From a virus: a DNA stretch of 41,797 bases. This document shows positions 4,773 to 41,797 of this stretch, one piece after another. The stretch spans positions 1 through 41,797 of IMG/VR virus record IMGVR_UViG_3300035698_012210. The stretch is one strand, 5' to 3'. The notes under the pieces are model-generated. The model was given only the letters and a program-made list of their open reading frames with translations, searched no databases and had not been told where the DNA came from. Numbering within the stretch: position 1 is the stretch's first letter; the number at the start of each line of letters is the position of its first letter. The translations under genes and the position numbers were made by a program.

Positions 4773-5028
4773 TCACCTCGTACATTCCGCAGGCTATATC
4801 CTTTTTCCGTATGTCTGTTGCTGTACTATGTGATACCCCTTTTAATTCGCATTTGAAAAAGCTATAATATTCCATTCTTAAAAAGTATTTACAATCTCCA
4901 CACTTCTTTCCTTCTAGTTTCCCGTATTTCTTTTGCATATCTACATACTTACGATATGGCTCTTTTTTTGTTTTCTGTATTGCCTCATCATATTCTATCT
5001 CACCTGTTATTGTTATCTGTTTCATCAT
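4759..5028 (-). CDS. Small cysteine-rich protein, possible metal site
   Basis: An 89-residue protein with CGDCKYF (about residues 43-49), KCELKG (about 58-63) and a last cysteine in ACGMYEV (about 79-85). The spacing suggests a four-cysteine zinc knuckle. This layout (CxxCKYF...C...C) is common in small phage proteins of unknown function. It overlaps both neighbours by short ATGA-type junctions. No catalytic motif is visible. Confidence 0.65.
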   Translation of the reverse strand: MMKQITITGEIEYDEAIQKTKKEPYRKYVDMQKKYGKLEGKKCGDCKYFLRMEYYSFFKCELKGVSHSTATDIRKKDIACGMYEVNDEI

Positions 5029-5789
5029 TCGCCTCTCAATAACTCTATTTCTTCTGCTGCAATCTTGATATGTCTTTTTACTTTTTCTAGTTTGCTGAAA
5101 TCAAAGCCTGTTATGTTTTTTTCTATTAAGCCATATATCTGATCTGGATAATAATTGCTATATTGGTTCTTTATGTTTTTTTCTGTTAGTATTTTTTCTA
5201 ACTCTTTCCACTTCTTTGCGTCTCTTTCGGCAATATGCATTTTAGTTCTTTCGGCTATTAACGAATTACTAATTACCTTTTTATTTTCTCTGCCTAACCT
5301 CTCGGTTTCCATCTTGACCGCAACATCTAGTTCATAATCAATTTGTGTTTTTGGTCCGTTGATATCTTTGTACATATGAAATTTCCAAAACATGATATGT
5401 AGGATCGTGTTCCTCATAATTGTCATGTCTAATCTGTCAGTTCTTGGCGCGTATTTTTTTGTAATTATTTTACCTGAAGGATAAATATACTTTAATCCGG
5501 CATATTCTGGTACCTCTGTTTTATCTATTAATCCTTTTGGGGTAATAAAATATAATTGATTACATGCTTTCAAATATTCCTCATGTTTCTTATCGTTCAT
5601 AAAGTCTCGTCTTGATGTCTTTATTTCATAACCTACTATCGTTACTGGAGACCATGTTGGTTCTATTGCTACAAAATCTATTATTCTTCTTCCTGCGCTT
5701 CCCATTTTTACTTGACTGGCGCATATGTTTTTTTTGTTTGCGTCAAATAATGCGTTTGTAATTGATGCTTCTGTGTTATATTCACTCAT
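5025..5789 (-). CDS. MmcB-like PD-(D/E)XK nuclease
   Basis: The N-terminal domain (residues 1-130) has a nuclease-like core: RRIIDFVAIEP, then VGYEIKTSRRDFMNDKKHEEYLKACNQLYFITP (given as VGYEIKTSRRDF, MNDKKHEEY, LKACNQLYFITP). The aspartate of IIDFV and the E-x-K of GYEIK match the catalytic PD-(D/E)XK arrangement of the MmcB/DUF1052 DNA-repair family, in which EVK-S--DF is the signature. The remaining half (130-254) is helical and may bind DNA or a partner. It could process DNA during replication or recombination and might supply the nuclease missing from the recombination cassette. The family assignment is by motif only. Confidence 0.75.
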   Translation of the reverse strand: MSEYNTEASITNALFDANKKNICASQVKMGSAGRRIIDFVAIEPTWSPVTIVGYEIKTSRRDFMNDKKHEEYLKACNQLYFITPKGLIDKTEVPEYAGLKYIYPSGKIITKKYAPRTDRLDMTIMRNTILHIMFWKFHMYKDINGPKTQIDYELDVAVKMETERLGRENKKVISNSLIAERTKMHIAERDAKKWKELEKILTEKNIKNQYSNYYPDQIYGLIEKNITGFDFSKLEKVKRHIKIAAEEIELLRGE

Positions 5790-6819: not shown

Positions 6820-7037
6820 TATAATCTCCTCTCTACTTCTTCCTTTTCATCTTCCACCAACTTTATATAATTAACCATCTGTCCCTCTGTTTTATAAAAC
6901 CAGTCTGGTCTATCATCATTTTTCAAGTAATTAGTCCATAATAGTTTCATATCGTTATTCGTATACATCTTACCATCATTGCAATGTAGTCCCTCAATCC
7001 TGTGGTCTAATTCAATAATATATTTATATTTAGCCAT
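6819..7037 (-). CDS. Small unknown early protein
   Basis: The 72-residue protein starts at the ATG at 7037 (MAKYKYIIELDHRIEG), seven bases after AGGAG. An upstream in-frame extension to 7127 would run deep into the YopX-like gene without a ribosome site. The sequence has WTNYLKNDDRPDWFYKTEGQ in the middle and ends in an acidic helix. I do not recognise a family. Confidence 0.65.
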   Translation of the reverse strand: MAKYKYIIELDHRIEGLHCNDGKMYTNNDMKLLWTNYLKNDDRPDWFYKTEGQMVNYIKLVEDEKEEVERRL

Positions 7038-7050
7038 TATAATCTCCTCT

Positions 7051-7425
7051 CTATTCTTCCTTATCGTGTATGTTTTCGATTTTTTCATATTCTTCTTCTG
7101 TCCGACACATAAACAATGGTCCACCATTTATTTTGCCATCTTCTATGTTTCTAACCCAATAAGAATCTTTTTTGTTTATGATAACGTATTTATCAGTTAC
7201 ACTTTTCTCTGTTAATGGATTAATATAAGTTTTACCTATAATATCTCCCTCAAATAGTTTTACTTTATTCTTATCAGTTCTATTTGTGTACATCATAAAG
7301 ATATAGTCGCCACATTCCCCGTTCTTTATATTCAATACATCGTTTTCTTCAAACCACCATAGGTCATTTATTTCTATCATTTCTTTGGTTCGTTTATTCC
7401 ATGCTATTAATAATAACTCATCCAT
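7051..7425 (-). CDS. YopX-like protein
   Basis: A 124-residue protein matching the YopX fold: IFMMYTNRTDKNKVKLFEGDII (written as IFMMYTNRTDKN, KVKLFEGDII) is the family hallmark, normally YTGLKDKNG followed by IYEGDIV. YopX proteins are very common in Bacillota phages and form small beta barrels; their function is not known. The N-terminal part (about 45 residues) is a strand-rich extension with DLWWFEENDV. Start supported by TAGGAG. Alone in its frame, with no overlap to the next gene. Confidence 0.85.
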   Translation of the reverse strand: MDELLLIAWNKRTKEMIEINDLWWFEENDVLNIKNGECGDYIFMMYTNRTDKNKVKLFEGDIIGKTYINPLTEKSVTDKYVIINKKDSYWVRNIEDGKINGGPLFMCRTEEEYEKIENIHDKEE

Positions 7426-7441
7426 TATGCGCTCCTATCAA

Positions 7442-7624
7442 TCATATTAATTTTTTTATTTCATTTTCAAGGTTTTCAATGCAATCATTCATAGTAAAAC
7501 TTACATAATATCCCTCTTTTTTTTGTTTGTATCCCTCAATTATATCTTCCAAACGGTATGTATATCCCCATTTTTCTATATATTCTTTTATTGTTTTAAC
7601 TGCTTTTACATCTTTAATCTTCAT
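7442..7624 (-). CDS. Small unknown early protein
   Basis: A 60-residue basic protein (MKIKDVKAVKTIKEYIEK) with a central GYYVSF strand and a C-terminal helix ENLENEIKKLI. No family is recognised. Start uses the repeated cassette GAGAGGAGATTATAATG, which strongly supports translation. Confidence 0.6.
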   Translation of the reverse strand: MKIKDVKAVKTIKEYIEKWGYTYRLEDIIEGYKQKKEGYYVSFTMNDCIENLENEIKKLI

Positions 7625-8960: not shown

Positions 8961-9146
8961 TCATCTCCTCCTTGAGATAAATTCCATCCTGTTGATTCTC
9001 ACTTTTTTACCTTCATCTTTTTCAATATGGTTCTTAATCCTCAACTTTTCTTTTCCACTAATATTTTCATCATGATCCGTTGTAACAAGTAAAACAGTCT
9101 TTTTCTTGTCTCCCACTCTGTAGGTTACTTTGTACACGTTTTTCAT
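8961..9146 (-). CDS. Small basic protein, unknown
   Basis: A 61-residue lysine/arginine-rich protein (MKNVYKVTYRVGDKKKTVLL). The ATG at 9146 is preferred over an in-frame TTG three bases upstream because AGGAGG lies seven bases before it. Beta-strand pattern then a basic helix (KLRIKNHIEKDEGKKVR). Its start overlaps the stop of the DUF1064-like gene. Function unknown; nucleic-acid contact is possible. Confidence 0.55.
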   Translation of the reverse strand: MKNVYKVTYRVGDKKKTVLLVTTDHDENISGKEKLRIKNHIEKDEGKKVRINRMEFISRRR

Positions 9147-9562
9147 CAAATATCCTCCTTCTTGATAACTCTAATTTCTAGGGTAGGATATCGAGCTTTG
9201 AACATTTTGTATGTCCTCTTCCACTCTGGAGTGTCATATCCTTTGGTGTCGATTATTTCAAATGTTAGATCATTGTGTAATATTAAAAAGTCTGATCTAT
9301 GAGTAATGGCCCTGGTGCCTTCAGCACCTTCTACTAAGATGAATTCCGGCTGCAGTACAAATCCTGCTATCTCTCCGGCCTTTTTCAGTATCTTCAGCAT
9401 CCCATAATATTTTGCTTCTAGTTGACTATTGAAAAATATGCCATCTAGCCACGTTCCTTTGCTTCTGTACCTTGTCTCTTTTTTAGGTTTCTCAAAGCTA
9501 GCCAGGGCTTTTTGGTTTCTCTTCCTAATGCTTTCCGGTAGATCGTCTATTTCCCAGGGCAT
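9146..9562 (-). CDS. DUF1064-like endonuclease
   Basis: The 138-residue protein has the DUF1064 pattern: DGIFFNSQLEAKYYGML (about residues 40-56), then FVLQPEFIL, and HRSDFLILHNDLTFEIIDTKG (written HRSDFLILHND, LTFEIIDTKG) with SDF and IDTKG as the likely acidic and lysine residues of a PD-(D/E)XK fold. The helix with E of SQLEAKYY is typical of the first conserved acidic residue. Members are thought to be restriction-like or resolvase-like nucleases in phage recombination regions. Overlaps the next gene by 16 bases. A candidate cutting enzyme for replication intermediates. Confidence 0.82.
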   Translation of the reverse strand: MPWEIDDLPESIRKRNQKALASFEKPKKETRYRSKGTWLDGIFFNSQLEAKYYGMLKILKKAGEIAGFVLQPEFILVEGAEGTRAITHRSDFLILHNDLTFEIIDTKGYDTPEWKRTYKMFKARYPTLEIRVIKKEDI

Positions 9563-10967: not shown

Positions 10968-11645
10968 CTATTCCCTCTTTTCTATTCCGTCTTCTTTCAT
11001 CCATATCTCTATGGTCTTAACTGGCTCAGCATATTGATCACCTGTCTTACACACTTGCTTTTCCATTTTTGTTATATAGATGTCAGTGTTTTCAAAACCG
11101 TATTTACTAACAAGTGAATTAAATTCATCAGATGGGAGTGTGAAAATATCGCTTATACTCTCTCCCTCTATATCTTGTTCTTTCTCTAACTCTTTCTCTA
11201 GTTCTATACTCTCTCTCTTACTCTTGTCGGACATTGTCTCAATTTGTCCTTTTTTAGCAGCTTCAACTTTCTTACGATATTCTCTTTTTTTACGGGCATA
11301 TACAGTCTCAGATCCAGTCATGCTTTTTATTCCAGTCATGAATATAGTGCCATCTTCTTGTACCTCAATAAGCTGTAATGACTCAACTGCAATTTTGAAT
11401 AACTTTTCTAGTTTTTCTTTGTCAACTGATATAGCTGCGCATAATAAATCGTTAGTATATGGAATTTCATTTGAAAATCGCAAGGATCCATTATGGTCCA
11501 AGCTCTCTAGTAGTAGTTTTAAATATATTATTATAAGACTATCACCATCATCGCCGCCTAAATGCATGATGGCTTTCACATCGTGCCGCTGGAAGAATCC
11601 GCGGACGAGTTTTAGCCAATAATATTTGGTTGTGCTTTCACTCAT
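10968..11645 (-). CDS. Replisome organiser (phage replication protein)
   Basis: The 225-residue protein begins with the Phage_rep_org_N pattern: KYYWLKLVRGFFQRHDVKAI (given as KYYWLKLVRG, FFQRHDVKAI), followed by GDSLIIIYLKLLLESLDHNG and a winged-helix type body to about residue 120. A lysine/arginine linker (ARKKREYRKKVEAA) leads to a C-terminal part, about 170-225 (YGFENTDIYITKMEKQ and IEIWMKEDGIEK), like the DnaD-type C-terminal domain. Such proteins bind the phage origin and recruit the host helicase and loader. No DnaC-like loader gene follows, so the phage probably uses the host's. The origin may lie in this gene or in the gap upstream. Confidence 0.87.
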   Translation of the reverse strand: MSESTTKYYWLKLVRGFFQRHDVKAIMHLGGDDGDSLIIIYLKLLLESLDHNGSLRFSNEIPYTNDLLCAAISVDKEKLEKLFKIAVESLQLIEVQEDGTIFMTGIKSMTGSETVYARKKREYRKKVEAAKKGQIETMSDKSKRESIELEKELEKEQDIEGESISDIFTLPSDEFNSLVSKYGFENTDIYITKMEKQVCKTGDQYAEPVKTIEIWMKEDGIEKRE

Positions 11646-12083: not shown

Positions 12084-12446
12084 TTATCTGCTTCCAGTAG
12101 CTTCTTTCGGCAGTGCGATTACTTGTTGCCCCATTGGGATAATTGTTTGCTCAATTTTTTCCTGTCCTTCTATTATCTTCAATTCTCTTTTAAGATGTCT
12201 TCTAGTTTTAAAGAAGGAAAATATATAACTTTCAACTTGTTTTAGTTGTTTTCTTACCTCTTCTTTTGTAGTAGGTTTCCAATATCCAGCTGACTTAGTG
12301 CTGCTACAAATTATGACACCTCTGTCTCTTGAATCAGCGATAAGTAATCTTATTTTCCTGTCAGATATACCCAAGTTGTTGCATAATGTTTCACGTGTAA
12401 CCCGGTTTTCTTTGCCTTTTGGAATAAATATTTCTATATTAATCAT
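12084..12446 (-). CDS. Winged-helix DNA-binding protein
   Basis: The 120-residue protein has a winged-helix pattern: ENRVTRETLCNNLGISDRKIRLLI (given as ENRVTRETLCNNLGI, SDRKIRLLIADSRDRG), then a strand pair IICSSTKSAGYWKP and a helical tail (QLKQVESYIFSFFKTRRHLKREL). The same layout is known in a family of small clostridial-phage proteins next to recombination genes. It overlaps the helicase stop by ATGA and is the last gene before the 229-bp gap. Likely binds DNA; whether it regulates the cassette or loads replication proteins is open. Confidence 0.75.
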   Translation of the reverse strand: MINIEIFIPKGKENRVTRETLCNNLGISDRKIRLLIADSRDRGVIICSSTKSAGYWKPTTKEEVRKQLKQVESYIFSFFKTRRHLKRELKIIEGQEKIEQTIIPMGQQVIALPKEATGSR

Positions 12447-14296
12447 GATAACACCTCAATAGTATCCTTGTAAAATTGGCTAGGACAAGATGATAATAAC
12501 ACACTTCCGAATCCACCCAACTTTTGTTCACTTGATGTGATTCTTAATTCTTCCTCAGCTCTGGTGATCGCCACAAAGTATAACCTTCGTTCCTCTTCGA
12601 TGTTCCCATTTTTATTTGGGAATACCCCATCTGTAACGCCAGGGATAATAACCTTACTGAACTCTAATCCTTTTGATGCATGAACAGTCATGATCTTGTG
12701 GCCTTTAGGCTCTTCCTCTAGCTCTGCTTGGATGTCACGAATCATAATGTACAACAGGAACGCTTCTATGGATACAGGCTCTCCTATCGTCAACTGTCTG
12801 ACTTCCCATTTTGTCACTTTACTCTTCAATGTATTAAAATCTTCAGCTCTATTGTCCAAACCGATTTGTCTCTGAAGTTCAATAACATTGTAGTAATTCA
12901 ATACGAGGTTAATGGCATCTCCAGCACTATCCTCTTCCTTTATCCTATCAACTATTTCAATATAGTTCTTTGCGCTTTGGCCATAACCAGAAATCCAACT
13001 CTTAAGTCCTTCGTACATGCCTTCTTCTTCATGGTTAGCAGTCTGTCTTACCTCATTAATTTCTCTAGCATTAAGTGATCTAGCGAATTGATTGATCGTA
13101 TTCACAAATGAATGATCATCTAGTTCATTATTGGCCATCTTTAAAAATGAAAGAATCGATCTAATATGTGGTTTCCTGAAAATATTGTTCTTACTGCTGA
13201 TAATCTGTAAATCGATACCTAATCGAGAAAGCATTTGGCTATAGTATTCCACTTGGCCATTAGTTCTACAGAGAATAGCGACCTCTTCTTTTGAGCCGTT
13301 GCTAATATCATCAGCAATATATTGGACCTCATCATAAAGAGAATCTGTCGTATGCGCCTGTATAGGATCATTGATATTATTATTGGTGAAAAAAGGGATC
13401 AGTGTCTTATCTGTCCTATTTTTGTTCTTAAGAATTATTTCATTAGCTAACTCTAGGATGTCTTCACCTGATCTGTAGTTGGTTTCTAGCTTGATAACTT
13501 GATACCCATTCTCAGGAGACTCTGCAGCAATCCTTACTATATTCTCCGGGACTGCGTTTCTCCATTCGTAAATAGATTGGTAATCATCTCCTACGATGAA
13601 TAGATTGTTAGGATTAATTAACCTAATTAGTTCAGCCTGTGCTTCGTTAGTATCCTGAAACTCATCCACAAAGACATATTTGTATTTATAATTCAGTTCC
13701 ATTCGGAGATCCTCGAAGCTTTTTAATAAAAACACAGTTTTTGATATAAGTGCTGATAGATCGATAGCATTATAGCTTCTCAATCTATACTCGTATTCGT
13801 TAATAACATTGATACAAGCATTCTTCTCTATTTCATTCTTGTATTTCACGTCACCACCTGTGTATATTTTGATAGCCTTTGTAACAGAAATCAATAGCTG
13901 GTATTCTTTTATGATGTTTTTGAAGATAGATTGCCTATCCTGATCGTCATAAATTGAAAACCCTTCATCCAGGCCAATTCTATAACCATCTTCTTTTAGC
14001 ACTTTAAGACAAAATGCGTGGAACGTATTACAGAATACTTTCTTACCTTCATCCCCAATCAAGTCTATGATCCTCTTCTTCATCTCTTGGCCAGCTAGTC
14101 TAGTAAATGTCAGTGCTAGCATGTTAGAAGTGCCTTCTCTTTGTTGATTTAGGTAAGCAATCCTGGCGGTCAGGGTACGGGTTTTGCCCGTCCCTGCTCC
14201 GGCAAGACATAGTATTCTAGGTTCTGTTGAAGTGGCAGCGATATACTGCATTTCGTTAAGTCCCTCAATGTAGGCATTTATTTTATTAGCTGCCAT
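12443..14296 (-). CDS. UvrD/Rep-type superfamily 1A DNA helicase
   Basis: The 617-residue enzyme has all SF1A motifs: Walker A AGAGTGKT (32-39), motif Ia ALTFTRLAGQEM (61-72), Walker B VDEFQDTN (210-217), motif III GDDYQSIYEWR (236-246), motif IV-like ETNYRS, motif V TVHASKGLEF (537-546) and motif VI VAITRAEEEL (575-584). It should unwind DNA 3'-to-5' using ATP. At 617 residues it is slightly shorter than UvrD or PcrA (about 720), mainly at the C-terminus. It overlaps the SMC-like gene by 19 bases. Phage copies serve replication restart, strand displacement or recombination. No nuclease domain is fused, unlike AddA. Confidence 0.95.
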   Translation of the reverse strand: MAANKINAYIEGLNEMQYIAATSTEPRILCLAGAGTGKTRTLTARIAYLNQQREGTSNMLALTFTRLAGQEMKKRIIDLIGDEGKKVFCNTFHAFCLKVLKEDGYRIGLDEGFSIYDDQDRQSIFKNIIKEYQLLISVTKAIKIYTGGDVKYKNEIEKNACINVINEYEYRLRSYNAIDLSALISKTVFLLKSFEDLRMELNYKYKYVFVDEFQDTNEAQAELIRLINPNNLFIVGDDYQSIYEWRNAVPENIVRIAAESPENGYQVIKLETNYRSGEDILELANEIILKNKNRTDKTLIPFFTNNNINDPIQAHTTDSLYDEVQYIADDISNGSKEEVAILCRTNGQVEYYSQMLSRLGIDLQIISSKNNIFRKPHIRSILSFLKMANNELDDHSFVNTINQFARSLNAREINEVRQTANHEEEGMYEGLKSWISGYGQSAKNYIEIVDRIKEEDSAGDAINLVLNYYNVIELQRQIGLDNRAEDFNTLKSKVTKWEVRQLTIGEPVSIEAFLLYIMIRDIQAELEEEPKGHKIMTVHASKGLEFSKVIIPGVTDGVFPNKNGNIEEERRLYFVAITRAEEELRITSSEQKLGGFGSVLLSSCPSQFYKDTIEVLS

Positions 14297-16359
14297 ATCG
14301 TGTATCCTTCCAAGTCCTCCGCTACAGGTTTGATTGCTCCTGCTATAATTACGTTATCAAAGTTTTTAGTAAAAAGCAACAAACTTTTCATGGCGCTCCC
14401 TCTGCTATATTCGTCAAAGTTTTCAACACTATCTAACATGAATATTTTTGTAGGTAGACTTAAATTATCAACGATTGTAGTGAGCAATGCAGCCGATAAG
14501 ATACCCTTTTCACTCGTACTGAGCGCTGGGAATAAGACCTGATTGTCTTTTTCATCTATCCAGCCATACTTGAACACTTCTCTGTCAGTGTCGTTAGTGG
14601 TTACAAAGACAAATGTATGCTGCTTATAGGCTTGGATCATGCGTAACTTATCAGTGATCTGTGCTTCTATTGGTGTCAAGATAGCCTTAACGATCTCTCC
14701 CTGTACACCTGAAGGACCTAATGCTCTGTGAATATCCATGTATATTACATACTTCACTTCGGCTTCCTGGGCCTCTGAAGTGGCTTTGAGAAGGTTATTC
14801 AATGTGGTCTTGGCTTGTTCTTTATCACTGATCAACTTTTTAGTTGCGACTCTTTCTGCCTTATAACCTTCCATCAACTTTTCAAAATCAACAAGAACTG
14901 CACCGTCAGGAGCAGAACTACCCTCATCTTTCATGGCTGAAATGTCTTTCTTGGTTTCAGTTATTGATGCTGTAATAGTCTCAATTTCTTTAACAAGGCC
15001 ATCGATGTAGATTTTAGAAGCTGCTTCAATTTTATCTGCTTCAGTATTTTGGAAAATCTTAGAATCCATCTTTCGCTCTTGTGAAGTAATAAGATTTTGA
15101 AGCTTTTCTATCTCAACTATATGACCTTGTGAACGATCCTCTATTTCATAATATTCATCGTGTAAAGATTTAAGTTGTTTTTGTTTTTCTTCATGTTTCA
15201 TAGGCTGTAGATTTGGACAGGTCCACTCACTATCAACTGGGCATATATCAAGTGCTTCGTTTGGCATCATCTCTTTTAATTTTTTTATGCTTTCATATTT
15301 AGAGTTCATTTCTGAGAGTGTAGACGCCTTTTTGTTTACTTCTTTTATAGTATGCTCTCGGTATTTTGACAGTTGTCTTTCATGAACGGCAATATCTTCA
15401 GCTGAATATCTAATAACATTAGGAGATTTATAGCCTAACATCTCTGTTGTTAATTCTCTAAGCTTAGTTAGCATAGAATTTAGGATGTTTTCTTTTCTAG
15501 TACGCTCAACTATTCCTCGTCTATAAGTAGCGATTGCAGCTTTGCACTTACCAATGTCTTCAGAAAGATCTTCAATCTTCTTGTCAAGTCTAACAACACG
15601 TTGTCTCTCTTCAGATATTCCCTTGTCAGTCTCAGCTAAAGCATTCTTATACTCCAGGAGCTTCTTAGAGGCACTTTGTGCTTCTTTTCTTTTGACCTTG
15701 TACTCTACGACTTTTTCCCAGGCATATGTCTGTAAACTATTCAAGACCTCATTCAAGGTCATTCCATCAGGATAGATCCCCATGACACTATTAATTGCCT
15801 TGACCGTTTCTTCTCTTACTTCATCATCAACAATTGAAATAATATCTTTTCTTAAGAAATCATTGACATAATCTTTGCCGAATTGAGACTGATCATACTC
15901 GGCGATGTTATAGATAAAGTCTCTGCGCTGATTGTCAGTCATGCTGTTCAGCTCATTGAAGTCAAACATCATAGGGAATTTACCGATTTCCGCTTGGATT
16001 CTTATTTCTTTTTCCTTGTTACTGGTCTCTCCATGAGATGGAGCAACTGATAGATACTGAACAATTTTAGTTTCTTTTGTCCCATCTTTTTTTGTTGTTC
16101 TTTTCTTGGTCCAAGTTCTTGCACACTCAAATCCAGTTGAAGTTTTAAGACCAACGGTCATGTCTATGCCTGTAGCATATTGAAATACATCATCGGCTTT
16201 CTTAAGACCGCCAGGTAAATAACCTAAACAGGTTAATGCTATTGCTTGCTGGACGGAAGTCTTACCGCTTCCGTTTGGTCCAACAAATACTTCTCGACCA
16301 CTGAGTGAATATTCACTAGTTTGCCCCTTGAAGTTCCTAAATGTAACTTTTGTAATCAT
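14278..16359 (-). CDS. SMC/Rad50-like ATPase (SbcC-type)
   Basis: A 693-residue ABC-type ATPase. The N-terminal head has Walker A GPNGSGKTS (27-35). Coiled-coil regions span about 215-350 and 390-535. They flank CPVDSEWTC (373-381), whose two cysteines sit where Rad50 and SbcC carry a zinc hook, though the spacing is wider than CxxC. The C-terminal head has an ABC signature-like ALSTSEKG (612-619) and a Walker B-like IFMLDSVENFD (639-649). Rad50-type proteins tether DNA and control a partner nuclease; no SbcD/Mre11 gene is next to it. It probably works with the annealing protein and helicase on either side. GGAGG before the ATG is good. Confidence 0.9.
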   Translation of the reverse strand: MITKVTFRNFKGQTSEYSLSGREVFVGPNGSGKTSVQQAIALTCLGYLPGGLKKADDVFQYATGIDMTVGLKTSTGFECARTWTKKRTTKKDGTKETKIVQYLSVAPSHGETSNKEKEIRIQAEIGKFPMMFDFNELNSMTDNQRRDFIYNIAEYDQSQFGKDYVNDFLRKDIISIVDDEVREETVKAINSVMGIYPDGMTLNEVLNSLQTYAWEKVVEYKVKRKEAQSASKKLLEYKNALAETDKGISEERQRVVRLDKKIEDLSEDIGKCKAAIATYRRGIVERTRKENILNSMLTKLRELTTEMLGYKSPNVIRYSAEDIAVHERQLSKYREHTIKEVNKKASTLSEMNSKYESIKKLKEMMPNEALDICPVDSEWTCPNLQPMKHEEKQKQLKSLHDEYYEIEDRSQGHIVEIEKLQNLITSQERKMDSKIFQNTEADKIEAASKIYIDGLVKEIETITASITETKKDISAMKDEGSSAPDGAVLVDFEKLMEGYKAERVATKKLISDKEQAKTTLNNLLKATSEAQEAEVKYVIYMDIHRALGPSGVQGEIVKAILTPIEAQITDKLRMIQAYKQHTFVFVTTNDTDREVFKYGWIDEKDNQVLFPALSTSEKGILSAALLTTIVDNLSLPTKIFMLDSVENFDEYSRGSAMKSLLLFTKNFDNVIIAGAIKPVAEDLEGYTIWQLIK

Positions 16360-16394
16360 CTTGTTTCCTCCGTTTTATTTCTCTTATTTTCTTT

Positions 16395-16405
16395 ATTGTA
16401 CCACA
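16395..16405 (-). promoter_or_regulatory. Possible extended -10 element before the SMC-like gene
   Basis: On the minus strand TTGTGGTACAAT lies 36 bases before the SMC-like start. TGGTACAAT fits an extended -10 and resembles two stronger promoters here (TGGTATAAT at 19265 and 39238). The -35 region is not recognisable, so an internal weak promoter is all that can be proposed. Confidence 0.3.
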
Positions 16406-16420
16406 AGTTTCCTTTTGTTT

Positions 16421-17551
16421 CTACTTTGCAGCCAGTTCTTTATTAAGACGGTTGATAGCAACACTTCTTTCAATTCTTCCCAATTGGTCATATGTTTTGC
16501 CATCAAAATTATCAGCTATAATCTTAGCTACTTCGTTTGGGAACAACTCATACATGGATTCATATTGCTTATCAAGATTAGATGTCTCTGTCTCTTTTTC
16601 ATCTACGATTTCACCATCTTGAGTAATGATAACAGCCTCTTCATCTCCTGGCTCAATAGAGGCATCTGTTTCTTCAGCTTCTTCATATTTTTCATCAATA
16701 TGGATATCAATCAAGCCAGCTGACTTTGTCTGAAGAGTGGCATTTTCTACTCTATTCTTCAATTCAGTTAACTGTGCATCAGAGAAATCATTTATCCATC
16801 CAACTACAGGTACTCTAGCATTGCCCTCGCTGTCAGCAACTAAGTGTGATCCACTGCTCAACGCAGGATGTGATTTCAACGCATTTCGTTCACAAATAGT
16901 CTGTGCTTTTCGTTCAGCATATAATCTATTCTGAATATGAGTTCCTAGTGCCTTTAGAACATCAGCATTTGATGGATCTGCCCATACACCGATTCCTTGT
17001 TCAATTTCAAAGAATACGCCTTTAGCTTTTTCGTCTTCAGATAACTGAGAATAAGCACATACTTTGCCTGCACTTTTATTTTTCTTAATTTTCTTCAATA
17101 GGTCCTGGATGAAATACATTTGAATATCATACAGCAAAGTTCTTGAGGTCATTACAAGATTACCAGTTGGGCTGTATCCTATACCTATTTTCTTAACCCA
17201 AACTTTTTTAATAGATCCTGTTTTCTCATCAACTATTGGATAAGGATTCACGACAATTTCTCCGCTTGGCAGTTTCATAGTATCAGGAGTAATGATTGAG
17301 ACACCAGCTATTTTGTTAAGGTGATCATACCCTACTTTGGTAATCATATTTTTTTCCTGTATGTTTACAAAGTGACCTTTCACGCTTGATAGTATAACTA
17401 CAGCTTTAACAGCTTTAACGAATCCGTCTTCAGTTCTTCTAACGAATACATCTCCATCTCCAAGGGATCCTATTTCTGGTTTGATAGCTAGTTTCTTTCT
17501 TAGTTCTAACAGTTCTTTGTCCTTAGGATCCATTACTTCATTTTCATTCAT
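16421..17551 (-). CDS. Putative single-strand annealing protein (recombinase)
   Basis: The ATG at 17551 (MNENEVMDPKDKELL) follows GGAGGG by seven bases, so the 376-residue form is preferred over a longer frame from 17593. The protein has a soluble alpha/beta core up to about residue 285, including VGYDHLNKIAGVSIITP (about 74-90), YSPTGNLVMTSRTLLYD (about 120-136) and a helix YAERKAQTICERNALKSHP (about 215-233). Helices with A-x-T-x-x-x-RNAL lie at a comparable place in several annealing-protein families (RecT, Sak, Erf). An acidic, low-complexity tail follows (EEAEETDASIEPGDEEA), as in many ssDNA-binding proteins. Context beside SMC and helicase genes supports recombination. I cannot assign it to one family. 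Confidence 0.5.
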   Translation of the reverse strand: MNENEVMDPKDKELLELRKKLAIKPEIGSLGDGDVFVRRTEDGFVKAVKAVVILSSVKGHFVNIQEKNMITKVGYDHLNKIAGVSIITPDTMKLPSGEIVVNPYPIVDEKTGSIKKVWVKKIGIGYSPTGNLVMTSRTLLYDIQMYFIQDLLKKIKKNKSAGKVCAYSQLSEDEKAKGVFFEIEQGIGVWADPSNADVLKALGTHIQNRLYAERKAQTICERNALKSHPALSSGSHLVADSEGNARVPVVGWINDFSDAQLTELKNRVENATLQTKSAGLIDIHIDEKYEEAEETDASIEPGDEEAVIITQDGEIVDEKETETSNLDKQYESMYELFPNEVAKIIADNFDGKTYDQLGRIERSVAINRLNKELAAK

Positions 17552-17753
17552 TTTGTTTCCCTCCGTTATTTGTTTCTCTATGCCAATTCTCACAAGTCCC
17601 TATATCAAATCTAGGGGGTGCTTTTGGCCCTGTGCCTAATCTGTACTCGATTGGCATTCCTTGTCTCATGTACTTACTGATCGTCTGTAAGCTTACACCG
17701 AAATGTGTAGCAATCTCCTTTTTACAAACGAATGGTGTTAGTGTTTGTGCCAT
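17544..17753 (-). CDS. Small helix-turn-helix (MerR/excisionase-like) protein
   Basis: The ATG at 17753 (MAQTLTPFVCKKEIATHFG) follows AAGGAG; an upstream ATG at 17771 overlaps that site and is not favoured. The 69-residue protein has a HTH_17-type winged-helix: VCKKEIATHFGVSLQTISKYM (given as VCKKEIATHFGV, SLQTISKYMRQGMP), then MPIEYRLGTGPKAPPRFD, resembling DNA-binding modules of excisionases and small terminase-like proteins. With no integrase in the genome it is more likely a regulator. The perfect inverted repeat in its own promoter is a natural target. Overlaps the next gene by eight bases. Confidence 0.75.
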   Translation of the reverse strand: MAQTLTPFVCKKEIATHFGVSLQTISKYMRQGMPIEYRLGTGPKAPPRFDIGTCENWHRETNNGGKQNE

Positions 17754-20026: not shown

Positions 20027-20341
20027 CTATGCTCCGTCATAATCTGGTATGATTGATTTTAAAATATCCATAGTTGTTTTTTGAATAACTCCTATGTCAT
20101 TATCATCTGTATCCTTTATCTTTGCTTCTGTAGAATATGTCCCAAGCATTAGCCTGGTAGTTGCTGCGTCTAGTTCTGCTTCAAATATCCCAGCTGTTAT
20201 GGTCGCTACTATTTCTATAGTTGTTCCATCTTGGGTATAAGCAAAGACGCCATCAGCGTTTAGATCTGTTAGCGTCGCTCCGTCTGCATCTACAATTGTT
20301 AGTTTAATTTTAAGCGTTGCGCCCTGGTATCCTTCAATCAT
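20027..20341 (-). CDS. BppU-like baseplate/tail protein (N-terminal domain)
   Basis: The ATG at 20341 (MIEGYQGATLKIKLT) is chosen over 20374; AAGGAG lies about ten bases upstream. The 104-residue protein has the beta-sandwich pattern of the BppU N-terminal domain: KIKLTIVDADGATLTDLNAD, a strand IFEAELDAATTRL and the end GTYSTEAKIKDTDDNDIG. Such domains attach receptor-binding proteins to the tail tip. It overlaps the end of the large fibre gene by eight bases, so the two are probably assembled together. No receptor-binding part is attached. Confidence 0.7.
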   Translation of the reverse strand: MIEGYQGATLKIKLTIVDADGATLTDLNADGVFAYTQDGTTIEIVATITAGIFEAELDAATTRLMLGTYSTEAKIKDTDDNDIGVIQKTTMDILKSIIPDYDGA

Positions 20342-22727
20342 ATATAATCCACTCCTTTTCGTATGTGACATCAAATGTCGCTATTTCTTCTATAGTTATA
20401 TTATAAAGCACTGTAGCTTCATATACTACGGTCCTATTTATATTTTCTTCAAAATCTTTTAGCTCTACGATTTTAGAATAAATTATACTATAAGTTACTA
20501 TTGATTCATATACTGTTCTGTCTGATACGTCTTCTAGCTCCTCTATATAAATTGCTTGATCTGTGTACGTAATATTAAATACCGCTATAGCTTCGTATAG
20601 TATTCCTCCGTCTACGGTACTTGTGTATTCCTGAAGCTGTACTTGTGTTTTATATGTAATATTATATACTGCAGTACTTTGGTATAGATTCCCTAAATAG
20701 TAGGATATTCCTTCGTATCCCCTAGCTGCGCTTCTAATTGTCAAGGTTTGAGCGGCGGTACCGCTTGTTAGTTTTTTGCCTGTTTCTGTTAGATTAATAG
20801 CTATATTTGTTATACTGGAGCCATTTCCGTTACGTTTTCCCTGGCTATTTGTTATGATGGCGCTGCTCATGACGGTTGATCCAAGCCCTGTTTTGTATCC
20901 TGTAGCGCTATTTTGTATTATTAGCGTTATGCTTGATGATCCTGTTTTACTCTCGGTTCTTTTTCCTGTTGCTGTAGAAGTTACTACTATACTTATTATT
21001 GATGATTCTTTACCGGCTTTGTCCCCTTCAGCTGTTTGGTTTATAGTTAGGCTATTTATTACGGGCGGCGCCCTGGCTTCTTTCTCTCCTTCAGCTGATT
21101 GCTGTATTACTATCGTTATACTTGATGATCCGCTGTAATTCTCTTGTCTGTTTCCTTCGGCGCTGCTCTGAATGGTAAGCGTTGTCGCTGTGTCTCCGGC
21201 TCCTGCCTTATCTCCTGTTACGGTACCACTTACGCTATTTGATATGCTGCTAGTGCTTAGGGCTGATTTGAGGCCCTCGGCTGTTAAATTGATAATTACT
21301 GAAATAGTAGAGCTTGCGGCCTTGCTTTTATTTCCTGCTGCTGCTAGTTGTATCGTAAGTTGATCTTCTGCTAATCCGTATCCTGTTTTGATTCCCTGGG
21401 CTGCGTTAGTTAATACAAGTGTTATCTCTGAAGAACCCGTATTTGCTTTTTGTCCTGTGGCTGTTGTTTGTATTACCGTACTAATAGCCGCGGTTCCGTC
21501 TGATTCCTTTGTACCTGAAGCCGCGGTCTGTACTGCCGCGCTTGCTGCTGATATTCCTTTTCCCTCTTTTTCGCCTGCTGCTGATTGCTGCACTATTATT
21601 GTTATTGATGATGTTCCGCTGTAATCTTCGCCGCTGTCTGCTGGCAATTCTACTGTTGCAAAAGTCATATACTGTGTTTGGCCGTTATCGCTCTGTCTGT
21701 GTATTATTTGTGTTGTGCTATAAATCATGTGATTGATATATCCACGGGGTTGCGCTGTACCTGTACCTGTGCAGTCGTTTGTGTACGACATTATCGCTGA
21801 ATTATCCAGGTCGCTTAGCGTGTTTGTTAAAGTCGTGTATTGTATTTCTTCTTCTCCGCCGGCGTTTAGCAGCACGTTCTGGTTCCATTGGACCTTCATG
21901 GCTTTGTCTGTTGCGGTTTCGCTGTTTGAAATTATAAATACTCTATTTATCTTTGTCGCTGCATTTGTGGAAGTAGTGCAATCTGCGGTTAGCGTTGTTG
22001 TTGTTATTCTTATTTGTGTGGCCATATCGTCCAGGCCGCTATTGTTGTCTGCTAGTCTATATTGTGCGTGGTAAAATGAACGCTCCAGCGTTATTGTTGG
22101 GCTTAGCGTTGCTGTCCCGGTACTGTTACTGAATTCGTGTTTTTGTATATCCCAGTTCGATCCTGTGAATTCTATTATTGCGTATGCTGCGTATGCTTCG
22201 CTTGTTGATTGTCCCCTGGTTGCGGTTAGCGTTGTCCCCGCTAGCGCTAGGGTAAATCTCATTGCCGCGTTATCGCCTCTTCCTGTGTTGGCCGATCCTT
22301 GTCCTGTTATCCAGGGTACACAATCGCTTATACTGGATATCCCTGATATTGAAGCGGTCCCGGTAAGGCTTCCTCCTGCTGTTGTTATAACACCTTTTTG
22401 TCTTACTATTATTTCGTTGGCTCCACCTGCCGATCCTATGTACTGGATAATTTGCCAGTCAACTCTGCAGTTGTTGGCTGTCCCTTTTCTGGTTAGTATC
22501 GTGTTTTCTCCACTTTGTACTGGGTGTACGGTTGTGTCGTCTGCGTTTTGCGATCCGCCGCTAGCCGTCTTTCCCATACCTGAGAAGTAAGAATTAGTTA
22601 TATGAAAAAACCACGCTGTATCGGCTATTCCAGATTCCAGCGTGTAATCGGTTCCTTCTGTAAGCGTCAAGGTTAAGTCCCCGGCCGCTATTATTGATGA
22701 TCCTCTTATGACTTTGAAATCTGCCAT
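20334..22727 (-). CDS. Large repeat-rich tail fibre/adhesin-like protein
   Basis: A 797-residue protein. Residues 1-365 are a folded, beta-rich region with many Ser, Thr and Gly residues and few charges. From about 369 to 672 there are about 15 imperfect repeats of 20-25 residues of the form SSSITIVIQQSAEGEKEG, each probably one beta-strand pair ending in a GxK turn. From about 678 to 790 lies a second family of about four units of 28 residues with the pattern VYEAIVxYNITY. The N-terminus MADFKVIRGSSI probably attaches to the tail. It is preceded by AGGAG and followed by the BppU-like gene. Likely a cell-binding appendage. The repeat sequence is unlike any family I can name. Confidence 0.7.
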   Translation of the reverse strand: MADFKVIRGSSIIAAGDLTLTLTEGTDYTLESGIADTAWFFHITNSYFSGMGKTASGGSQNADDTTVHPVQSGENTILTRKGTANNCRVDWQIIQYIGSAGGANEIIVRQKGVITTAGGSLTGTASISGISSISDCVPWITGQGSANTGRGDNAAMRFTLALAGTTLTATRGQSTSEAYAAYAIIEFTGSNWDIQKHEFSNSTGTATLSPTITLERSFYHAQYRLADNNSGLDDMATQIRITTTTLTADCTTSTNAATKINRVFIISNSETATDKAMKVQWNQNVLLNAGGEEEIQYTTLTNTLSDLDNSAIMSYTNDCTGTGTAQPRGYINHMIYSTTQIIHRQSDNGQTQYMTFATVELPADSGEDYSGTSSITIIVQQSAAGEKEGKGISAASAAVQTAASGTKESDGTAAISTVIQTTATGQKANTGSSEITLVLTNAAQGIKTGYGLAEDQLTIQLAAAGNKSKAASSTISVIINLTAEGLKSALSTSSISNSVSGTVTGDKAGAGDTATTLTIQSSAEGNRQENYSGSSSITIVIQQSAEGEKEARAPPVINSLTINQTAEGDKAGKESSIISIVVTSTATGKRTESKTGSSSITLIIQNSATGYKTGLGSTVMSSAIITNSQGKRNGNGSSITNIAINLTETGKKLTSGTAAQTLTIRSAARGYEGISYYLGNLYQSTAVYNITYKTQVQLQEYTSTVDGGILYEAIAVFNITYTDQAIYIEELEDVSDRTVYESIVTYSIIYSKIVELKDFEENINRTVVYEATVLYNITIEEIATFDVTYEKEWIIYD

Positions 22728-40617: not shown

Positions 40618-41797
40618 TTACATCCCCTCTACTGGTTTTTCATCTGTTAGTATGTCTTCGTATTCACCGGTTGCTTCTTCGTCGTTTACGTCGTCTAGGC
40701 GTTTTATAGCGCTAATCTGGCTAGTTGTTGCTTTTTGGCCAGTTCTTACTGCTTCTATCTCTGCTTGTTCTGCTGGGTCGTTTGGTAATCCGTCCTGCCA
40801 GCTGATGGCTATCTTGTTTTTTTCTATAGTCTTTCCGCTTGAAATCTGCGTATATAGTGAAATCGCTTTCTTAATTCCTGGGTCAAAATTCATACGTACT
40901 CTTTTTACTTTAGCCAGCGCGCTCATCATCATTCTTCTCATGGCCGTTCCGCTTGGTACTTGGCCGCTGTTAGTACTTGAGAAATCTCCTAATAGTGCTG
41001 CGCCTAATTCACTTATAATATATAGGTTGTTAGTTAATATTTCTATTTGTTTGAATGCTGCCTCTAATTCGGCGTCCCATGTAATATATTCTGTTGGTGG
41101 ATCTTCTTTTGTGTTCCTGGTAAAATAGTTACCCATTTTTAATCTCCAGCCTTTTGTCGCTGGGTCTCTCTCAAGTGCTGATGATGGTCCACTTACTGAA
41201 GGGGCGGCGTGTTTATCTAATATAATACTTACCTGGGCTATTCTTATCATAAGTTCGCTAATAATGCTGTCTACGTCCTTATAGTCGTCTAGTCCTGTTA
41301 CGGCGTCTGATGTCACTAGGCTCGGTATATGTATTACTGCGAAGTCGTCCATATTTGTGGTTATGGTTTCTTCGTTTATCATTGTTCCTATTGTGAACGG
41401 TCCTACTGGGCAGCCTTCCATTATTGATCCGGTTAAGTTATACTCTCTTTCTCTATAGCTTCCCTTTTCATGGATCTGTACAAATAGCTTTAGTATTTCT
41501 CCGCTGTTGCCTGCTGATTCTACCTCCTCTATTATTACCCATCCTAATACGTGATATTCTATCTTTTTAATATTACGCTGCGATACTACTGGAAACCAAA
41601 TAGATGGCTGCGTTAGCCCTATTACTGGGGCTGCTCCGTCCATGTATACGTGGTATAGCCCTTCTCCGTATCTTGAAGCGTCAATTGCTACCTGGTAGCT
41701 TGTGACTATAAGCTCGTTGTCTGTTACGGCGTCTTCTATTATTTTTTGATCGCTTTCGCTATTCTCTTTATCTGAAGCGTTTATCTTGGGTGGCTCA
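40618..41797 (-). CDS. Portal protein, C-terminal part (split by the contig ends)
   Basis: This frame stays open from the window end, so its 5' end is at position 375 on the circle. The 350 codons after the overlap plus 125 from the left end give 475. The region contains ISTRS-like IVSELMIRIAQVSIILDKHA (about residues 215-235 of the full protein), TNSGQVPSGTAMRRMMMSAL and PNDPAEQAEIEAVRTGQKAT. The SGTAMR--L and PxDPAEExE patterns are typical of SPP1-type portals. Charged C-terminus. An internal ATG at 41643 only looks like a start because of the cut. Confidence 0.93.
   Translation of the reverse strand, partial: EPPKINASDKENSESDQKIIEDAVTDNELIVTSYQVAIDASRYGEGLYHVYMDGAAPVIGLTQPSIWFPVVSQRNIKKIEYHVLGWVIIEEVESAGNSGEILKLFVQIHEKGSYREREYNLTGSIMEGCPVGPFTIGTMINEETITTNMDDFAVIHIPSLVTSDAVTGLDDYKDVDSIISELMIRIAQVSIILDKHAAPSVSGPSSALERDPATKGWRLKMGNYFTRNTKEDPPTEYITWDAELEAAFKQIEILTNNLYIISELGAALLGDFSSTNSGQVPSGTAMRRMMMSALAKVKRVRMNFDPGIKKAISLYTQISSGKTIEKNKIAISWQDGLPNDPAEQAEIEAVRTGQKATTSQISAIKRLDDVNDEEATGEYEDILTDEKPVEGM
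41671..41797. repeat. Terminal direct repeat, right copy (circular closure)
   Basis: Identical to bases 1-127, lying inside the portal coding sequence. It should be counted once in the circular genome. Confidence 0.97.

Follow-up and report, generated by a model that had tools for sequence, protein, structure and literature searches.

What is the function of a phage operon that combines a candidate single-strand annealing protein with a Rad50/SbcC-like ATPase and a UvrD-type helicase, and that encodes no nuclease? The question is raised by positions 12,084 to 17,753 of the IMG/VR phage record IMGVR_UViG_3300035698_012210 (41,797 bases), which was analysed as a whole and is referred to here as the window. 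A preliminary description, made from the sequence alone, had proposed an undescribed recombination system at this locus, either with a partner nuclease from elsewhere in the phage or from its host, or with the helicase replacing resection. Our analysis makes it probable that the operon is a phage homologous-recombination and replication-restart module, composed of a new annealing protein (annealase), a Rad50/SbcC-like ATPase without Mre11/SbcD, and a PcrA/UvrD helicase. The annealase-Rad50-UvrD module is real and conserved, and it is apparently unnamed; the way in which it would work is proposed in the last section.

Operon structure and conservation of gene order

The five open reading frames (ORFs) of the preliminary description were confirmed in place, all on the minus strand. 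The genes for the annealase candidate (16421..17551, minus strand; 376 residues; ATG at 17551 behind GGAGGG), the Rad50/SbcC/SMC-like ATPase (14278..16359, minus strand; 693 residues; start behind GGAGG) and the UvrD/PcrA-type SF1 helicase (12443..14296, minus strand; 617 residues, no nuclease domain) follow one another, preceded by a small helix-turn-helix gene and followed by a small winged-helix-like gene. Because of the overlaps of 8 bases (helix-turn-helix/annealase), 19 bases (ATPase/helicase) and 4 bases (helicase/last gene), and a spacing of 61 bases between the annealase and ATPase genes, the five genes are read as one operon.

Scans anchored on the annealase gave matches on viral contigs and in genomes of Bacillota (Schinkia, Sporosarcina, Hathewaya, Brevibacillus, Bacillus); the order annealase-SMC-UvrD was found in 20/20 loci (seven bacterial genomes and 13 viral contigs; locus counts here and below are not independent, as close relatives are among them), one Brevibacillus copy among them being decayed. 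The neighbours of the three-gene set differ among the loci of this first survey. The same order is kept in a far relative, the GC-rich phage L086, at 33/24/24% identity (annealase/SMC/UvrD). A scan anchored on the SMC gene yielded 57 viral loci, with UvrD on the fetched stretch in 51; the annealase family is encoded directly or nearly directly upstream in 46 of these 51, and the remaining five slots are occupied by Rad52_Rad22 proteins (two), by PHROG 10048 (two) and by a divergent relative (one, L179). A survey for conserved gene order had been suggested beforehand; the arrangement is far beyond chance, and inheritance of the three genes as a set is supported.

No match was obtained by tblastn with the annealase and the SMC protein in annotated phages, or with the SMC protein in plasmids. 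The annealase was rare in a search of one genome per species (about 398), with one match (G308) beyond the genomes already known. UvrD matches in faecal 'phage' records were set aside, since their gene content looked like that of host PcrA loci.

Exchange of the annealing slot

At two loci (L142 and L145), the gene directly upstream of the SMC gene encodes a Rad52_Rad22 protein (PF04098; E = 4e-23 and 2e-21, over the Pfam cut-off), which also matches PHROG 1097, 'Erf-like ssDNA annealing protein' (1e-57). In a maximum-likelihood tree, the SMC proteins of these two loci are nested within a clade of annealase-family carriers (SH-aLRT 99 and 94), the simplest explanation of which is that one annealing protein replaced the other beside the same partners. 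Interchangeability of the annealing slot with a Rad52 protein is supported by these observations, and the exchange is the strongest single reason to expect that the new family anneals DNA. The slot of L172 is filled by a protein with a different core (PHROG 3657), but the new family's C-terminal tail recurs in its last 57 residues (E = 1e-7), as expected for an adapter tail on exchangeable cores.

Predicted structure of the annealing-protein candidate

The candidate comprises a core (residues about 26-270) and a helical C-terminal tail (residues about 318-376). It matches PHROG 32428, a family of unknown function (E = 3e-101), and gave no Pfam match over the cut-off and no NCBIfam or PADLOC match; the profiles of Sak3 and Sak4 were compared via the Pfam and PHROG scans only.

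A first AlphaFold2 model, from 19 close homologues, was discarded (predicted local distance difference test score, pLDDT, 56). The model of the core from 49 diverse sequences reached a pLDDT of 87.5 and a predicted template modelling score (pTM) of 0.79, and its elements are, in order, a beta hairpin, a helix, short strands, two long strands, an inserted helix with strands, and a long helix. This order agrees, as compared by description, with the published common core of LiRecT and RAD52, which consists of a beta hairpin, alpha-2, a three-stranded sheet and alpha-3 (PMC9772228).

The long helix (residues 212-230, AERKAQTICERNALKSHPA; 16862..16918, minus strand) is the predicted alpha-3 of the annealing core, which would contact DNA, and contains T218-I-C-E-R222-N223-A-L-K226. 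The DNA contacts on alpha-3 are T148, K152, R153 and R156 in RAD52, and K206, R210, N211 and K215 in LiRecT (PMC9772228; the LiRecT numbering was verified on 7ub2). When aligned by eye, T218, R222, N223 and K226 of the annealase correspond to the four RAD52 residues, and R222/N223 to R210/N211 of LiRecT. Position 218 is T or S, and position 222 is R or K, in 49/49 relatives; at the start of the preceding helix, G74 is found in 49/49 and Y/F75 in 47/49, the LiRecT equivalent being Y110. Profile alignments with RecT and Erf, which were not significant, both fall on the alpha-3 helix.

The assignment of 16421-17551 as an annealing protein in the preliminary description is supported by the slot exchange, by the RAD52/RecT-like order of elements and by the RAD52-like helix residues. 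Since no sequence-profile or Foldseek match was significant, we infer, and put no more firmly, that its product is a single-strand annealing protein in, or convergent with, the RAD52/RecT superfamily.

In 18/19 Bacillota homologues of the annealase the last residue is hydrophobic or aromatic and mostly stands behind an acidic stretch, similar to the tail of SSB; the copy in the window ends in the helical tail instead. Such acidic, hydrophobic-ended tails of several relatives, the replication genes adjoining the module, and the failure of fold and profile searches to link the protein significantly to annealing proteins would be accounted for if the slot protein were an ssDNA-binding protein or replication mediator (SSB or an Orf-like loader) and the set a replication-fork module. 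We regard this as improbable, given the Rad52_Rad22 protein in the same slot with its nested SMC phylogeny, the RAD52-like helix residues and element order of the model, and a separate SSB gene in a few relatives.

The SMC-like ATPase

The proposed SbcC/Rad50-like ATPase was recognised through Pfam AAA_23 (E = 1e-6), SMC_N and PHROG 77, 'SbcC-like' (E = 1e-24); its family is catalogued as PHROG 32642, with no function given. The protein has two half-heads linked by a coiled coil, with a head and hook of Rad50 type. The Walker A motif is intact. In Walker B the usual DE pair is absent from the one-chain (Bacillota) forms aligned, which have hhhD-N or D-S, and the split forms have hhh-x-E; IDEGF is found in the host SbcC proteins used as controls. 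As the Walker B motif is without the DE pair, hydrolysis may be slow or absent. The hook cysteine pair is invariant (C373 and C381 in the window, C-x7-C). Phages L161-L176 encode the ATPase in two genes that divide it at the hook (e.g. L163:6001-7011 and 6959-7567): the product of the first ends in a CxxC hook (AGCxxCA), and that of the second has the signature motif and EAAELD as Walker B.

The SMC protein of the window is on a very long branch, with 28% identity to its nearest relative; the annealase is about 50% identical to its relatives. This difference indicates an ATPase that is evolving unusually fast or has recombined. A NinB-like gene (identified by eye; a recombination protein) is located between the split SMC genes and UvrD at L174:3066-3461.

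The UvrD helicase

Pfam UvrD-helicase (E = 9e-63, in line with the preliminary description) and UvrD_C (E = 7e-43) together span residues 13-590 of 617, and NCBIfam PcrA is matched at 2e-110, below the equivalog cut-off of that model. The protein is an ordinary UvrD/PcrA-type SF1A enzyme without nuclease domain, as judged from its domain matches. Enzymes of the PcrA/UvrD family unwind DNA and remove RecA. The UvrD gene at L016:12210-15062 (the contig of L003) contains an intein-like insertion between DDFQ and SIYQFR, and L174:4451-7120 has one following GDIDQ, at what appears to be the same position; an intein is also annotated in the UvrD gene of phage SPO1.

An ABC-type ATPase gene adjoining a UvrD helicase gene is also the arrangement of Gabija (GajA OLD nuclease and GajB UvrD helicase), and the pair might be a prophage-borne anti-phage or superinfection-exclusion system of Gabija or Lamassu type, for which the PADLOC models of GajB (helicase, E = 2e-97) and, weakly, LmuB (ATPase, E = 1e-8) could be cited. 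However, the GajB models match UvrD helicases in general, and PcrA scores higher. For the ATPase of the window no GajA match was listed by PADLOC, no TOPRIM match was found in Pfam, and an OLD/TOPRIM nuclease domain was not seen; nor is any effector gene linked. Unlike Gabija, the set is constantly accompanied by an annealing protein and by genes for replication, and dozens of phages carry it in their early replication region. A role in defence is therefore very unlikely.

The search for a nuclease

That the operon encodes no nuclease, and the record no SbcD or YqaJ, was confirmed, and the absence extends across the family: SbcD was found in 0/31 and YqaJ in 0/31 of the module records searched (window included; some records are fragments). 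Among 133 neighbours surveyed with Pfam were RecU, RusA, DUF1064, SSB, DnaB and other replication genes, and the 25 commonest neighbour families included no exonuclease, the rarer families being listed in part.

An unlinked nuclease could nevertheless act in trans, e.g. host SbcD, RecJ or AddAB, or the phage MmcB-like or DUF1064 protein, in which case the module would be part of an ordinary system of annealing protein and exonuclease. Rad50-like proteins classically work with Mre11/SbcD, and SbcD scores over the cut-off in 6/7 of the host genomes with the module. Furthermore, RecT modules of Bacillales prophages consist of an SbcC-like gene, RecT and an MBL-fold gene, comparable to the reported recT-lactamase B2 association (PMC8093625). 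None of these nucleases is conserved with the module, however. The DUF1064/Holliday junction resolvase gene (9146..9562, minus strand; Pfam E = 9e-22, PHROG 190 4e-27) belongs to a resolvase family, and its product is likely a late-step partner and not a resection exonuclease; the MmcB-like gene (5025..5789, minus strand; PF06319 E = 4e-7, PHROG 5429 'DNA repair protein' 1e-18) recurs in one other related contig only (L004/L025). Both had been put forward as partner nuclease in the preliminary description, and both were rejected. Its third candidate, host SbcD, is weakened by the Schinkia genome (a draft assembly), in which the module is intact and neither SbcD nor SbcC scored over the cut-offs; SbcD is therefore unlikely to be a general requirement. 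Overall, we consider a nuclease in trans rather unlikely.

The premise that an annealing protein is normally paired with an exonuclease holds mainly for RecT/Red-beta; in Firmicutes phages the exonuclease linkage is typical of these, and erf, rad52/22 and sak3 are usually followed by ssb (PMC8093625), which makes the missing exonuclease less odd than had been assumed.

Comparison with known systems

The module resembles the RecT/Red-beta systems with exonuclease (RecET, lambda Red, and YqaJ- or DUF3799-linked recT of Firmicutes phages) in its early operon with an annealing protein beside replication genes, in the predicted hairpin-helix-sheet-helix core, and in the RN residues on the DNA-binding helix. 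It differs in that no homology was detected at the profile level, and in the Rad50-like ATPase and helicase in place of an exonuclease; the linked exonuclease that defines the two-component systems of annealing protein and exonuclease (SynExo) is absent. With the Rad52_Rad22, Erf and Sak3 systems of phages it shares the normal absence of an exonuclease, and Rad52_Rad22 itself is found beside SMC-UvrD in L142/L145; these systems are, however, usually linked to ssb and not to SMC and UvrD, and the annealase is of another sequence family.

The Bacillales prophages L182, L183 and L185 encode in a row an SbcC-like ATPase (PHROG 77), a RecT-type or similar gene and an MBL-fold gene. In such SbcC-like/RecT modules, too, a Rad50/SbcC-like ATPase adjoins an annealing protein and no SbcD was seen; the annealing protein is a RecT, though, several have the MBL-fold gene, the ATPase is distantly related, and no UvrD adjoins in the short stretches seen. 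SbcCD/Mre11-Rad50 has in common with the module the Rad50-like head, the coiled coil and the cysteine hook; the module is without SbcD/Mre11 nearby and without the DE pair in Walker B, and its hook is C-x7-C in the window compared with CxxC in SbcCD, the latter form being found only in the split relatives.

No description of the three-gene set was found in the open-access literature (subscription papers were outside the search), and 'undescribed system' is within this scope a fair term for the set; it is not for annealing-protein modules of phages as such, which were already known. New is the unusual pair of partners; PHROG 32428 and PHROG 32642 were already catalogued, without function.

Other features of the phage genome

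The record carries a direct terminal repeat of 127 bases (1-127 and 41671-41797), which makes a complete and circularly permuted genome assembly probable; the terminase is encoded at one end, the portal at the other, and tail genes in between.

The first gene of the operon encodes a small helix-turn-helix protein (17544..17753, minus strand; from the ORF list, with weak HTH/Nu1-like matches only), the start of which is at 17753 or 17771; a good ribosome-binding site precedes the ATG at 17753. It is probably a regulator, and in the relatives examined it is not conserved with the module. The last gene, for a small winged-helix-like protein (12084..12446, minus strand; PHROG 2113, E = 2e-14), is also outside the conserved core. 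Downstream of the operon are a DnaD-like phage replisome organiser (10968..11645, minus strand; Pfam Phage_rep_org_N 5e-19) and a Cro-like helix-turn-helix gene, which place the operon in the early replication region. An ORF of 797 residues at 20334-22727 contains many imperfect repeats of the type SSITIVIQxSAxGxKxGxG and probably encodes a tail fibre or adhesin.

Proposed function and significance

In the recombination and replication-restart module that we propose, the annealase family would lie within, or be convergent with, the RAD52/RecT superfamily, and the three proteins would cooperate, for which shared inheritance and the interchangeable slot are the basis in the data. The Rad50-like protein would bind and tether DNA ends or forks and, given a Walker B without the usual DE pair, may act by ATP binding with head closure rather than by fast turnover. 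The helicase may unwind duplex, or strip RecA and other proteins, to expose single strands; the annealase would coat these and pair complementary strands at gaps and forks; and the joint would be finished by a resolvase, i.e. DUF1064 here and RecU or RusA in relatives. In this way phage concatemers would be built and repaired by recombination independent of RecA. Single strands could be supplied by the helicase and replication, or by general host enzymes, and the missing exonuclease would then be no gap in the operon. Red proteins have been described as able to act on single-stranded DNA at replication forks (PMC2918612).

A more far-reaching version is a nuclease-independent machine, in which a dedicated UvrD makes the substrate, a Rad50-like clamp with neither nuclease partner nor normal ATP turnover holds it, and both the annealase core and the clamp architecture (one chain, or split at the hook) are swapped freely among phages; this we put forward tentatively, as possible though not the likelier case.

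Several results weigh against the proposed module. The profile and structure searches that had been suggested for relationship to RecT, Erf and Rad52 gave nothing significant: hhalign comparisons with the alignments of these three families were all below significance (that with Rad52 used few Bacilli sequences and was uninformative), Foldseek returned no significant match in the PDB, and the matches in BFVD were weak, a few of them being named Erf, Rad52 or recombination protein; RAD52 is not among the top DALI hits of LiRecT either (PMC9772228). The residue correspondence was drawn by eye, on one helix that was picked after an insignificant profile alignment. The slots of L150/L157 and L172 hold families of unassigned function, the degenerate Walker B is a reading of a motif and not of activity, and a nuclease elsewhere in the genome or in the host could still be the partner.

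The analysis gives a candidate function to the widespread family PHROG 32428 and to its ATPase partner, PHROG 32642, and names a conserved phage gene set whose annealing protein is accompanied by a Rad50-like protein and a helicase, and not by an exonuclease. The origin of the single strands used by annealing proteins becomes a directly testable question, and recombineering in Gram-positive laboratory hosts may gain new proteins from this family.

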